Below are positions 1,447-64,000 of a DNA stretch of 64,000 nt, piece after piece; position 1 is the first letter of the stretch; the number at the start of each line of letters is the position of its first letter. Source of the stretch: Cristatella mucedo (taxonomy: Eukaryota > Bryozoa > Phylactolaemata > Cristatellidae). The stretch spans positions 2,321,001-2,385,000 of the forward strand of contig WPIO01000054.1 in NCBI GenBank assembly GCA_009760855.2. Direction: 5' to 3'. The translations under genes were made by a program, and so were the position numbers. The notes under the pieces are model-generated. The model worked only from the letters and a program-made list of their open reading frames with translations, made no database searches and had not been told where the DNA came from.

Positions 1447-2649
1447 TCAAGTGTTTTCTTCTCTGGATGGCTGTGGCACGCGAGTGGTCATCGGATTTGA
1501 CGCGCCAGTAGTCATTAATGCGATATTGTCTTCGAGCGACTGAATTTCGAGCTTTCCTGCAGACGTCGCAATCGTGCTACTCTCTCGTTGCACTGCTCGG
1601 CTACGAGGTTGATCGCGTCCATCGAACGAACCACCTGACAATACCGACAGAGCCCTGTGAATTCCGGCTGCTCCCGAGTGCAAGAGCTCTCCTAGTGCCT
1701 TTCTATACTTCACAGACACGGCCAGGTAGACTGCAAAGGTGAGCGAGCTGCCCAAATACATCAGCAGGCGAGATATGGTCCACGCTACTTGCAAAGCCTC
1801 GTACGAGGCCTCGTCGAGGTTCTCCCAGTCGCCGACCGCAATAGGTAACGTCGTGACGACAAATATTCCGTTCAGAATGACCATCATAACCGTTACGGGT
1901 GTGGCTTTCCGTACATTTGCACTGTCTTTGAGATGAGGATGGCACAGCGAGTAAAGCGTGAAGCCATTGCACGGCAGCATTACGGCTACTGGCAAGACTA
2001 CGTATATAATGCTGTGGGCATAGCGCCATTTATGGAAAAGACTTTGGTTGACGACTTCGCAGCCACCATTGTCGTCCGCGAAGCCGTGCGCCGTATAGGG
2101 AATGACATTGACGCCGAGTAGAATTCCAACGATAACAGCGGTTGCTATGACGTTGTTTAGCCTGGTGAACCAAAATCTGTACTTGTGGGGCCTGGTAACA
2201 GTGCACAATCGTTCAACGGACACACAAGCTTCCATCCAAGAATAGAGTTGAAGCGAAAAGTAGATTGATGCGTAATACAGCTGACATCCCGCCTCCGTCG
2301 TCTCGCCTTGGAGGAACACGTTGTGGCAGGATTGATGTTTAACAATGGTTGAAAGTAGGCCAGCATACAAAGCAATCAGCCCAGAAAGAGACATCGTTAG
2401 CAAAAATATTGATAAGGGCAACTTGCGCATGCTTCTTTTTACCAGAAGCACGATAACTGAGAGCAAGTGTCCAACGGTACCGAAGATAAGGATCGGGTAT
2501 CCTAAATATACCCACAGCGACGTCAAAAGAAAATCGTGGTCATTGTAGCCGTCGCAATATTCGAGTGGGTGAACTGCAGAAGCGGAATGGCTCAACTGGG
2601 ACTCGTTCGCACGGTTTATCTCTCTGGTTTCATTTACTGGGTAGTCCAT
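1447..2649 (-). CDS. GPCR-A: divergent class A (rhodopsin-like) seven-transmembrane receptor, single exon
   Basis: One uninterrupted ATG frame of 400 residues with a good start context (A at -3, G at +4). The N-terminus has N-glycosylation sequons at N6 and N15 and a conserved Cys32. By hydropathy, TM1 is about 45-70, TM2 80-102, TM3 122-147, TM4 166-188, TM5 210-235, TM6 250-272 and TM7 286-310. C122 lies exactly 25 residues before R147 of VERL (C3.25 to R3.50), and C197 is the ECL2 partner. P220 (5.50) and P269 (6.50) are kept. Canonical residues are replaced: H61 for N1.50, G90 for D2.50, T267 for W6.48, T304-F305 for NP of NPxxY (Y308 kept). The tail carries RESSTIATSAGK at 355-366. It is about two-thirds identical by eye to GPCR-C over TM1-TM4. 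The ligand is unknown; a peptide or chemosensory role is only a guess. It acts at the plasma membrane by family inference. Confidence 0.92.
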   Translation of the reverse strand: MDYPVNETREINRANESQLSHSASAVHPLEYCDGYNDHDFLLTSLWVYLGYPILIFGTVGHLLSVIVLLVKRSMRKLPLSIFLLTMSLSGLIALYAGLLSTIVKHQSCHNVFLQGETTEAGCQLYYASIYFSLQLYSWMEACVSVERLCTVTRPHKYRFWFTRLNNVIATAVIVGILLGVNVIPYTAHGFADDNGGCEVVNQSLFHKWRYAHSIIYVVLPVAVMLPCNGFTLYSLCHPHLKDSANVRKATPVTVMMVILNGIFVVTTLPIAVGDWENLDEASYEALQVAWTISRLLMYLGSSLTFAVYLAVSVKYRKALGELLHSGAAGIHRALSVLSGGSFDGRDQPRSRAVQRESSTIATSAGKLEIQSLEDNIALMTTGASNPMTTRVPQPSREENT

Positions 2650-2820
2650 GTTCCTTTCGGCGGCTTCTTTCTAGAAGTAAATTAGCAAGAAAGTACTGAA
2701 GCCGCTGCTTTAAGCTTAAGTAGCTCCGTGAGAGTAAACTAGACACAATCTGCTGATTGTCTAAGGGGAGCTTGAGCAAATTGACTTTCGGAGTGACTGC
2801 TCGAAAAAAGTGTGGAAACG

Positions 2821-3007
2821 TCATAGCAACACTGATCAACAACGCCAAGTAACACTGATCAACAACGTCATAGCAACACTGATCAACAACGTCATAGCAA
2901 CACTGATCAACAATGTCATAGCTGACCTGATCAACAACGCCATAGCAACACTGATCAACAACGTCATAGCAACACTGATCAACAATGTCATAGCTGACCT
3001 GATCATA
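2821..3007. repeat. 24-bp minisatellite with 72-bp higher-order pattern
   Basis: About 7.7 units of TCATAGCAACACTGATCAAC plus AACG, one of them 23 bp. From 2868 the units alternate in threes (type ending AACG, type ending AATG, type with GCTGACC), giving two 72-bp cycles. Every unit has the palindrome TGATCA. It begins 171 bases upstream of the GPCR-A start codon. Because 24 is divisible by three, it opens spurious frames on both strands. Confidence 0.95.
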
Positions 3008-3074
3008 GGGTCAGTGAAGCAGACAATGTGCCGGTCAATGGACTTCTCTTCCGTCGAAGTCAAATAACCGTGCA

Positions 3075-3160
3075 AAGTCAAATTTAAAGCGCCTAGAGAG
3101 AGATTAAGTTCTCTGAGGGCGCTTTATCAAGTGAATTATTATTATTATTGTTATTATTAA
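3075..3160 (+). mobile_element. LINE-A 3' tail, solo fragment
   Basis: AAAGCGCC, then AGAGAGATTAAGTTCTCT, then GGGCGCTTTATCAAGTGAAT and an (ATT)n tail. This is the LINE-A 3'-terminal hairpin and tail with no coding sequence attached. Confidence 0.85.
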
Positions 3161-62165: not shown

Positions 62166-62189
62166 ATGCAAATCTGCCGCCAGGTGGCA
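62166..62189 (+). promoter_or_regulatory. Octamer and CTCF-like motif pair
   Basis: ATGCAAAT (the POU octamer) at 62166-62173 is followed by CCGCCAGGTGGCA at 62177-62189, which differs at one position from the CTCF core. It lies 1.6 kb upstream of GPCR-E. Chance occurrence is quite possible. Confidence 0.2.
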
Positions 62190-62221
62190 CGCTCGCGCTA
62201 CTCAACGAAGAAGGCTAGACG

Positions 62222-63175
62222 AAGAGAGACAGATAGATGGGGAGATATAGAGATAAGAGAGAGACAGAAAAAGACAGAAAAAGACACAGAGAGAGAGAGA
62301 GAGAGAGAGAGAGAGAGAGAGAGAGAGAGAGAAACAGAGACAGAGACGCGCGAGTGCAAGCAGCACCGATTTCTCCTTGCATCGTTGGACTTGGCTCGCC
62401 GTGCAGCTGTCGCTACGTCTTACGGAAAAGAATGGCTGATCCATGCAATACTTTCCTTCAGCACACGCGTAGCCGCCCAGCAGGTTTCTTTATGCTCCTC
62501 TGTCTTTCTCTCTCTCTCTCTCCCTTTCTCTCTCTTTCTCTGTCTGTCTTCCCCTGTCTCTCCCTGCGTCTCTCTCCGTCACACACTCGCTCTCTCTCTC
62601 CCTGTCCCTCGCTCTCTGTATTTCCGTCTCGCTCTTGCTCTACCACTCTCCGGGTGTAACTATCTATCCATTCTATCAATCCACCAATCAACTTATTTCT
62701 CTCTGACTCTTTCTATCTGTCTCTATATTGATTACATTTATTTCTTCACCATCTCTCTCTCTCTCTCTCTCTCTCTCTCTCTCTCTCTCTCTCTCTCTCT
62801 CTCTCTCTCTCTCTCTCTCTCTCTCTCTCTCTGTCTCTGTCTCTGTCTCCCTTTCTCTCTCTGTCTCGCCGTCTCTCTCTATACCACTCTCTCTGTCTGC
62901 CTGTCTCTCTCTGTATTTTTCTGTCCCTCTCTGCGTCTCTCTCTGTCACACACTTTCTCTCTCTCCCTCTCTCTCGCTCTCTGTATTTCCGTCTCTCTCT
63001 TGCTCAACCACTCTCCGGGTGTAACTATCTATTTATTCTATCAATCCTCTCTCTCTCTCTCTCTCTCTCTCTCTCTCTCTCTCTCTCTCTCTCTCTCTCT
63101 CTCTCTCTCTCTCTCTCTCTCTCTCTCTCTCTCTCTCTCTACCTCTCTGTCTTCCCCCTCCATTTCTCTCTCTAT
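62222..63175. repeat. GA- and CT-rich microsatellite block with internal duplication
   Basis: (GA)n at 62282-62333. CT-rich sequence follows, with pure (TC)n at about 62752-62833 and 63048-63140. CTCCGGGTGTAACTATCTAT occurs at 62647 and 63014, marking a 367-bp tandem duplication. Confidence 0.95.
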
Positions 63176-63798
63176 AGAGAGATCGCTGGATAATTATGTA
63201 GAACGCGGATGCAAACAAAATAGTCGGATGCGCCGCCGCCGCAGGAGCGCGTGGGCCGAGCGCCCTTTCGAATCGCTAATGCCGATCGCGCCGCGCCGCC
63301 TCCACCCGCACGCGTCCGTGGCATTTTATTTTTCACGGGCAATGAGGGCACGGCCGCGCGGAGCCGCCTCGGATCGTTATTAATGCGAGTGTCCGAGCAT
63401 CCAGCACCCCGACGCTCCTCCTTCCTCTTCTTCCGCTTCCGCTTCCGCCGCCGCCGCCGCAGACGTCGCCCTCGGGCTGTGTCAGCCGCTGCTGCTGCTG
63501 CCGCTGGAGGTGCTGCTGCGCCGCGACGCCGGTGGCTCCTCGCAGCGCCGAGCGAGCGAGCGAGCGAGCGACGCAGGCGTCACCGAACAGCAGCGTCGTC
63601 GTCGTCTTTCTGGCGCCGGCGGCTGGTCCTCGCCGGCGTAAAAATTCCGTCGTAAAATTAGGACGTCGGAACAATTCCGTCGCGACCGCAGCTCCCAGTC
63701 GCCGGAGTCGGACTTGCGGTTTCAGGCGCAGCTTCGATCTCCGTTCGCGGCAGCCTCCTCCTCCTCCTCCTCTTCCTCCGCGGCGGCGGCGGCTCATC
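63176..63798. other. CpG-rich 5' flank of GPCR-E
   Basis: GC-rich, with short CCG, GCT, GAGC and CCT repeats. It is probably promoter and 5' UTR; no TATA box or other gene is evident. Confidence 0.45.
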
Positions 63799-64000
63799 AT
63801 GAGCTCGAGCGACGCCGACGCGGCGGACAGCTCGACGGTCTCCGGCGACGGTCAACTGAGCCGCAGTCGGGGCGACGACGGTGACGACGACTTCGTCTGC
63901 GGCTTCGAGCGCGAGCCCTACTTCGCCGTTCAGCGCGCCCTGTTCACGTACGTCGGCTACCCGATCGTCGCGTGCGGCGTCGTCGGCCACCTGACCATGG
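63799..64000 (+). CDS. GPCR-E: N-terminus and TM1 of a fifth receptor (cut by window end)
   Basis: The ATG at 63799 opens a frame of 67 codons that continues past the window. The acidic, Ser-rich N-terminus has Cys34, followed by GFEREPYF and FTYVGYPIVACGVVGHLTM. This is the same layout as A-D: one Cys at 33-38, an aromatic stretch, GYPI, then TM1 with VGH, giving His at position 1.50. The strong codon bias to G/C fits the GC-rich surroundings. The remaining transmembrane segments lie outside the window, so intactness cannot be judged. A reverse-strand open frame covering the same bases is a shadow. Confidence 0.85.
   Translation, partial: MSSSDADAADSSTVSGDGQLSRSRGDDGDDDFVCGFEREPYFAVQRALFTYVGYPIVACGVVGHLTM

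Follow-up and report, generated by a model that had tools for sequence, protein, structure and literature searches.

A single-exon receptor family of Cristatella mucedo with a shared, divergent set of class A transmembrane residues

Can a rhodopsin-type (class A) receptor exchange the hallmark residues of its transmembrane core and still function? The question is raised by a 64,000-nucleotide stretch of Cristatella mucedo DNA (the window; C497:2321001-2385000 of a 572-Mb, 688-contig genome), which contains four complete single-exon receptors, A to D, and the truncated beginning of a fifth, E, all present as originally predicted. The evidence, all of it read from sequence, inclines us to regard receptors A, B and C, and probably E, as functional members of an expanded single-exon rhodopsin-type family with a fixed alternative transmembrane core. 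Members of this family would probably serve as orphan peptide-like or chemosensory receptors.

Receptors of the window and the genome-wide family

Receptor A (1447..2649, minus strand) encodes 400 amino acids, receptor B (29714..30841, plus strand) 375, and receptor C (49445..50608, plus strand) 387 from its Met. The open reading frame of receptor C opens at 49346 (49346-50608), and the Met at 49445 is the one that aligns with the other starts. All three carry H1.50, G2.50, E3.43, N5.58, N6.41 and T7.49-F7.50, with Thr (A) or Ala (B and C) at 6.48. Receptor D (54068..55225, plus strand), an open frame of 385 amino acids, is divergent and has R1.50. Only the N-terminal part of receptor E falls within the window (63799..64000, plus strand); it retains the motif GVVGHL, and with it H1.50, and extends past the window end, beyond which the genome reads N. 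Receptors A to D are full single-frame, intronless open reading frames with pairwise identities of 42-58%.

Searching the genome with receptor C returned 25 matches: 11 on C497, seven on C673, two each on C687 and C299, and one each on C581, C60 and C660. Leaving out two fragments (C673:996571 and C660:1412286), we read 23 proteins on six contigs. Counts for transmembrane helix (TM) 7 use 21 of these, because the sequence of L055 was read incompletely and the open frame of L053 stops before TM7. For comparison we used 16 other receptors of the same genome, chosen non-randomly from matches to the Pfam family PF00001 (17 were taken, and L003 was dropped as being in the wrong frame). In three controls the receptor frame is lost part-way, after TM5 (L007 and L008) or TM6 (L004); their entries beyond that point carry no meaning but are still included in the counts out of 16.

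The family differs from the controls at several positions. Position 1.50 is His in 21 of the 23 members (Arg in receptor D, Cys in member X1) and Asn in all 16 controls, while position 2.50 is Gly in 22 (Ala in L055) and Asp in all 16 controls. Position 3.39 is Tyr, Phe or His throughout the family and Ser, Asn, Gln or Thr throughout the controls. At 3.43 every member is polar (12 Glu, 11 Gln), against Leu, Val, Ile, Ala or Thr in the controls; Glu is found in the C497 proteins and in L050 on C687, and Gln in the proteins of C673, C299, C60 and C581 and in L055 on C687. Asn occupies 5.58 in 21 of 23 members (1/16 controls, or 2/16 in a gapped alignment) and 6.41 in 22 of 23 (0/16), and Thr occupies 6.47 in 22 of 23 (2/16). 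W4.50 is absent from the family and present in 12 of the 16 controls. W6.48 is likewise absent from all 23 members, but its loss does not set the family apart from other receptors of the genome, since only four of the 16 controls have it. Among the 21 members with a readable TM7, none has N7.49, 18 have F7.50, 19 have G7.45 (also found in 5/16 controls) and 20 have Y7.53. The H1.50/G2.50 pair and the polar residues at the lock positions are fixed across the family within this genome.

Two of these changes extend the original prediction: the additional loss of W4.50, and the polar residues at 3.43, 6.41 and 5.58 together with T6.47. The description of these receptors as lacking most activation residues was overstated, as R3.50 (22/23), E3.49 (21/23), P5.50 (22/23), P6.50 (22/23) and Y7.53 are kept, and F6.44 persists in 16 of 23 members.

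In a tree of all 23 members and the 16 controls, the family forms one side of a branch with an SH-aLRT value of 99; L055, X1 and X2 sit on long branches. Removing the ten trait columns and leaving out L055, X1 and X2 gave a tree in which the remaining 20 members were grouped with support of 100/99 and in 100% of 200 bootstrap trees, and in which controls L020 and L028 were flagged as long-branched. Both trees draw on sequences of a single genome and are without a fixed root; what stands of the predicted receptor clade is one monophyletic family within this genome. The nearest controls (L020, L021/22 and L028) retain N1.50 and D2.50, yet have already lost W4.50 and W6.48 and have Phe at 7.50, which suggests that the changes in TM4, TM6 and TM7 preceded those in TM1, TM2 and TM3.

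A PF00001 search of the whole genome gave at least 156 matches, with multiple matches on C11, C61, C210, C331, C475, C550, C660 and C671. These multi-match contigs suggest that other expanded single-exon receptor families exist in the same genome. A separate group of divergent receptors, loci L023 to L027 (C61 and C671), has E-H or E-Q where E-R3.50 would be expected, and its position 7.49 is Asp or Asn.

Class A membership and known receptor families

Are these proteins class A receptors, and do the unusual residues occupy the positions assigned to them? The seven-helix class A fold is present, and the Pfam 7tm_1 cut-off of 30.5 bits was passed by seven of the eight family members scanned: A (51.2 bits), B (40.0), C (54.9), L009, L012, L014 and L018; receptor D, at 20.3, falls below it. 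R3.50 is kept in 22 of 23 members and an acidic residue at 3.49 in all of them (Asp or Glu, 23/23), and the cysteines at 3.25 and in extracellular loop (ECL) 2 are present in 23 of 23. The residues that are missing are hallmarks of class A rather than defining for it (N1.50, D2.50, W4.50 and W6.48, 0/23; N7.49 and P7.50, 0/21).

A profile of receptors A to D matched solved class A receptors, among them P2Y4 (E 4.3e-8), neuromedin U receptor 2 (NMUR2; 6.4e-8) and AT1 (1.7e-6). The NMUR2 alignment places G-H on G-N1.50, MSLAG on the TM2 motif ending in D2.50, T.P on CW.P and SSLTF on SAVNP, with Thr, Ala or Ser on W6.48 and T-F on N7.49-P7.50. Within TM3 it contains a gap of one residue; the alignment to P2Y4 needs none in that helix and sets E3.43 opposite Leu. 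As C3.25 and R3.50 are also exactly 25 residues apart in receptor C, we numbered TM3 without a gap. Residues H/R1.50, G2.50, T/A/S6.48 and T/A7.49-F7.50 sit where they had been counted by eye.

Counts that do not depend on register agree with the alignment and argue that the canonical residues have not merely been displaced, which would have undone the original assignment. Asn is absent from TM1 in all 23 members and present in 16/16 controls; Trp is absent from TM4 (0/23; controls 12/16) and from TM6 (0/23; controls 6/16). Asp or Glu occurs in TM2 of five of the 23 members, in none at 2.50, and in that of 16/16 controls, and the 21 readable TM7 segments include Asn in three and Pro in one, none at 7.49 or 7.50.

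The solved peptide-type receptors (NMUR2, neurotensin receptor 1 and the opioid receptors) share about 16% identity with the family and differ from it at 1.50, 2.50, 3.39, 3.43, 4.50, 5.58, 6.41, 6.48, 7.45, 7.49 and 7.50. Closer in kind are two lineage expansions, described here from portions of the source articles. Platyhelminth rhodopsin orphan family 1 (PROF1) is intronless and lineage-expanded with remnant class A motifs, its subgroup II shares the TM6 pattern F...T.P, and Phe is common at 7.50 in both families (PMC3261222). The excerpted text gives PROF1 Asp or Glu (I and III) or His or Asn (II) at the TM2 position and Asp at 3.49, against G2.50 in 22 of 23 and E3.49 in 21 of 23 members of our family (PMC3261222). 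Receptors A to D share the intronless structure of PROF1 but not its platyhelminth lineage, as the COX1 code of this genome looks unlike the flatworm one. The COX1 gene on C688 (21,008 bases) is best translated with the invertebrate code (AAA as Lys, AGR as Ser, ATA as Met; the flatworm code would give AAA as Asn), judged at sites that we take to be conserved, and we infer that C688 is the mitochondrial contig of the same animal. Such a code speaks against a flatworm, echinoderm or vertebrate source. The second expansion, AcCRa-c of Aplysia, is mostly intronless, rhodopsin-type and in part clustered, with an E-R motif (ERC) ending TM3 (PMC2700072, in the portion available). Compared from that text alone, its signature ITAFITFERCLCIA has Thr at 3.43, counting from the Arg, against Glu or Gln in the family (PMC2700072). 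The fwRhods of Fasciola are defined, in the section of PMC6114109 used here, by having no matches outside flatworms.

The kind of receptor is thus already known, since PROF1 and AcCR are also expanded, largely intronless and divergent class A groups. This precedent is what favors the idea that ours is a known invertebrate family under another name, such as uncharacterised or FMRFamide-receptor-like proteins of molluscs, annelids or brachiopods, ordinary save for its divergence. Pfam offers a further hint, in that the nearest controls L020 and L021 match nematode Srw; Srsx matches too (28.2 bits for receptor A), but these matches are weaker, and 7tm_1 scores higher in all eight members scanned. 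Set against the idea are the TM2 and 3.49 residues of PROF1 given above and a literature search, confined to open-access text, that found no description of the H1.50/G2.50/E-Q3.43/N6.41 set; the residue labels used as queries returned no title on such a family, a result that says little about sequence sets published without such labels. We consider an already described family unlikely.

A possible activation mechanism

What would such a core do? As the original prediction held, the usual sodium pocket is lost: all four positions are replaced (G2.50, Y/F/H3.39, G7.45, and Thr, Ser or another residue at 7.49), and His stands for N1.50. The lock, normally hydrophobic, has polar residues here (E/Q3.43 and N6.41), and N5.58 takes the place of Tyr. 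Elements on the G-protein side (E-R3.50 and Y7.53) are retained, as are P5.50, P6.50 and the TM3-ECL2 cysteines. Elsewhere in class A, N1.50H and the loss of W6.48 or N7.49 are mostly inactivating.

The excerpt of Zhou et al. available here divides the common activation pathway into layers, of which layer 1 comprises the Na+ pocket (2x50, 3x39, 7x45 and 7x49) and the transmission switch, and layer 2 the hydrophobic lock, formed by 3x43 together with 6x40 and 6x41; during activation these last two residues give up their contact with 3x43 in favor of 5x58 and 5x55 (PMC6954041). Ala, Arg or Asn at 3.43 raises basal activity in other class A receptors (same excerpt), as does Thr at 6.47 in the portion of PMC9229843 drawn on here. 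That source also ranks D2.50 first in conservation among class A residues (92%) and describes D2.50G as a loss-of-function change in the A1 receptor.

A hydrogen bond between E/Q3.43 and N6.41 could hold the inactive state in place of the Na+ site and the W6.48 toggle. Agonist binding would then swing TM6, hand N6.41 over to N5.58 and TM5, and free R3.50 and Y7.53. The loss of function expected of D2.50G would be offset by changes that are activating in other receptors, namely a polar 3.43 and T6.47. We tentatively put this forward as a second natural solution to class A activation, fixed in one lineage, possible though still short of an even chance, in which the TM2 acid has in effect moved to TM3 and an inactivating layer 1 is balanced by an activating layer 2.

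The same residues could be read differently. Polar 3.43, N6.41 and T6.47 might leave the lock open, so that the receptors are constitutively active or ligand-independent and the genes act through their level of expression. Such activity would accord with the activating effects of Ala or Arg at 3.43 (PMC6954041, in part) and of T6.47 (PMC9229843, in part), and no Na+ pocket is left to hold an inactive state. It sits poorly with the inactivating effects expected of the 1.50, 2.50, 6.48 and 7.49 changes, and we regard it as improbable.

Selection, turnover and the weight of the evidence

Is the alternative core maintained by selection? The ratio of nonsynonymous to synonymous substitution (dN/dS), calculated by NG86 for nine pairs, ranged from 0.15 to 0.68. 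The four less saturated C497 pairs gave 0.27 (A-L011), 0.35 (C-L010), 0.22 (A-L012) and 0.25 (L011-L012), and three saturated C673 pairs gave 0.18 (L016-L017), 0.15 (L014-L016) and 0.16 (L051-L054). The selection reading rests on the four C497 pairs, as the others are near saturation or very divergent, or contain unchanged, probably converted stretches. The family appears to be under purifying selection. With 23 genome members sharing the residue set and ratios of 0.22-0.35 in these pairs, the earlier preference for a stable alternative design over decay is upheld.

Birth and death are visible in the family, in a pseudogene fragment, in the L053 frame that ends before TM7 and in the odd receptor D. 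The pseudogene fragment (L039; C497:2276361-2276834) lies upstream of the window and contains stops and frameshifts. Compared with receptor B, TM5 of receptor D contains two length changes, of 2 and 4 bases, which lie around an altered stretch and together bring the reading frame back; the receptor has neither P5.50 nor P6.50, and its TM1 holds an insertion of five residues. Receptor D also has an 18-bp tandem duplication near its C-terminus, with the frame still open. It may be degenerating or mis-assembled, and on account of its compensated frameshifts, lost prolines and TM1 insertion it cannot serve to illustrate design conservation. The predicted conservation across paralogues is therefore borne out by the family-wide residue set but not by receptor D.

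Several observations weigh against functional receptors with a fixed alternative core, or against the lock proposed for them. The dN/dS of the B-D pair is 0.44, and that of L018-L019, a recent pair at C299:23860-31630, is 0.68, with 58 codons carrying amino-acid changes against 22 silent. Codons 149-207 of the latter pair (TM3-TM4, numbered from the preceding stop) are fully unchanged, and the changes fall in ECL1, ECL2, TM5-ECL3 and the C-terminal tail, a distribution compatible with gene conversion accompanied by change beyond the conserved block, with diversifying change or with a relaxation of constraint. On either tree one change accounts for the E/Q state at 3.43, and as this is a single event it supplies no independent covariation for the 3.43-6.41 pair. 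The hydrogen bond is deduced from residue positions alone, and the AlphaFold2 (AF2) model of receptor C is of low confidence: at full length, with four sequences, its pLDDT was 51.1 and it was kept out of the fold searches, and a trimmed model reached 60.8. The controls are 16 chosen loci among the PF00001 matches. Comparing entropy between the extracellular and cytoplasmic halves of the helices gave no clear diversified pocket (p 0.108 for C497, 8 rows; 0.84 for C673, 6 rows; 0.0497 for 20 rows), which weakens any strong chemosensory claim. Finally, constitutive activity, a lack of G-protein coupling or a role as decoys is conceivable for these receptors.

Decay of the cluster, in which constraint eased after duplication and canonical residues were lost, much as in chemoreceptor arrays that are turning into pseudogenes, would account for receptor D, the pseudogene fragment, the shortened L053, the long branches of X1, X2 and L055 and the L018-L019 ratio, but is very improbable given that the same new residues recur in 21-22 of 23 members, that 20 members form one clade without the trait columns, that the four C497 ratios are low, and that R3.50 and, in 20 of the 21 members with TM7, Y7.53 are kept.

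Elsewhere the window carries repeats and putative element remnants. A reverse transcriptase fragment lies at 12608-13150 on the minus strand (Pfam RVT_1, E 2e-12). Open reading frames at 46569-47270 (minus), 36499-36951 (minus) and 20896-21732 (plus) resemble, by eye, the C-terminal part of non-long-terminal-repeat retrotransposons; of these, only the second drew a Pfam match, a weak and implausible one to KdpC below the cut-off, and the other two were assigned no family. A 14-bp minisatellite of 14 copies with 100% matches occupies 55862-56058, and long CT/GA and TA arrays occur at other sites. The CpG observed/expected ratio of the window is 1.11; this value and the COX1 code led us to reject a lamprey or other vertebrate origin, an idea prompted by resemblances among the retrotransposons. 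An Rfam scan of the window returned nothing at gathering scores.

Both the Na+ pocket and the hydrophobic lock are considered to belong to the common activation route (PMC6954041, as excerpted). If the preferred reading of functional receptors with an alternative core is true, a family in which both are replaced while the switches on the G-protein side are kept would reveal what the mechanism can do without, and the activation pathway could be tested by swapping small sets of residues between the family and ordinary receptors. The family is in this respect an unusual natural test of how class A receptors turn on.

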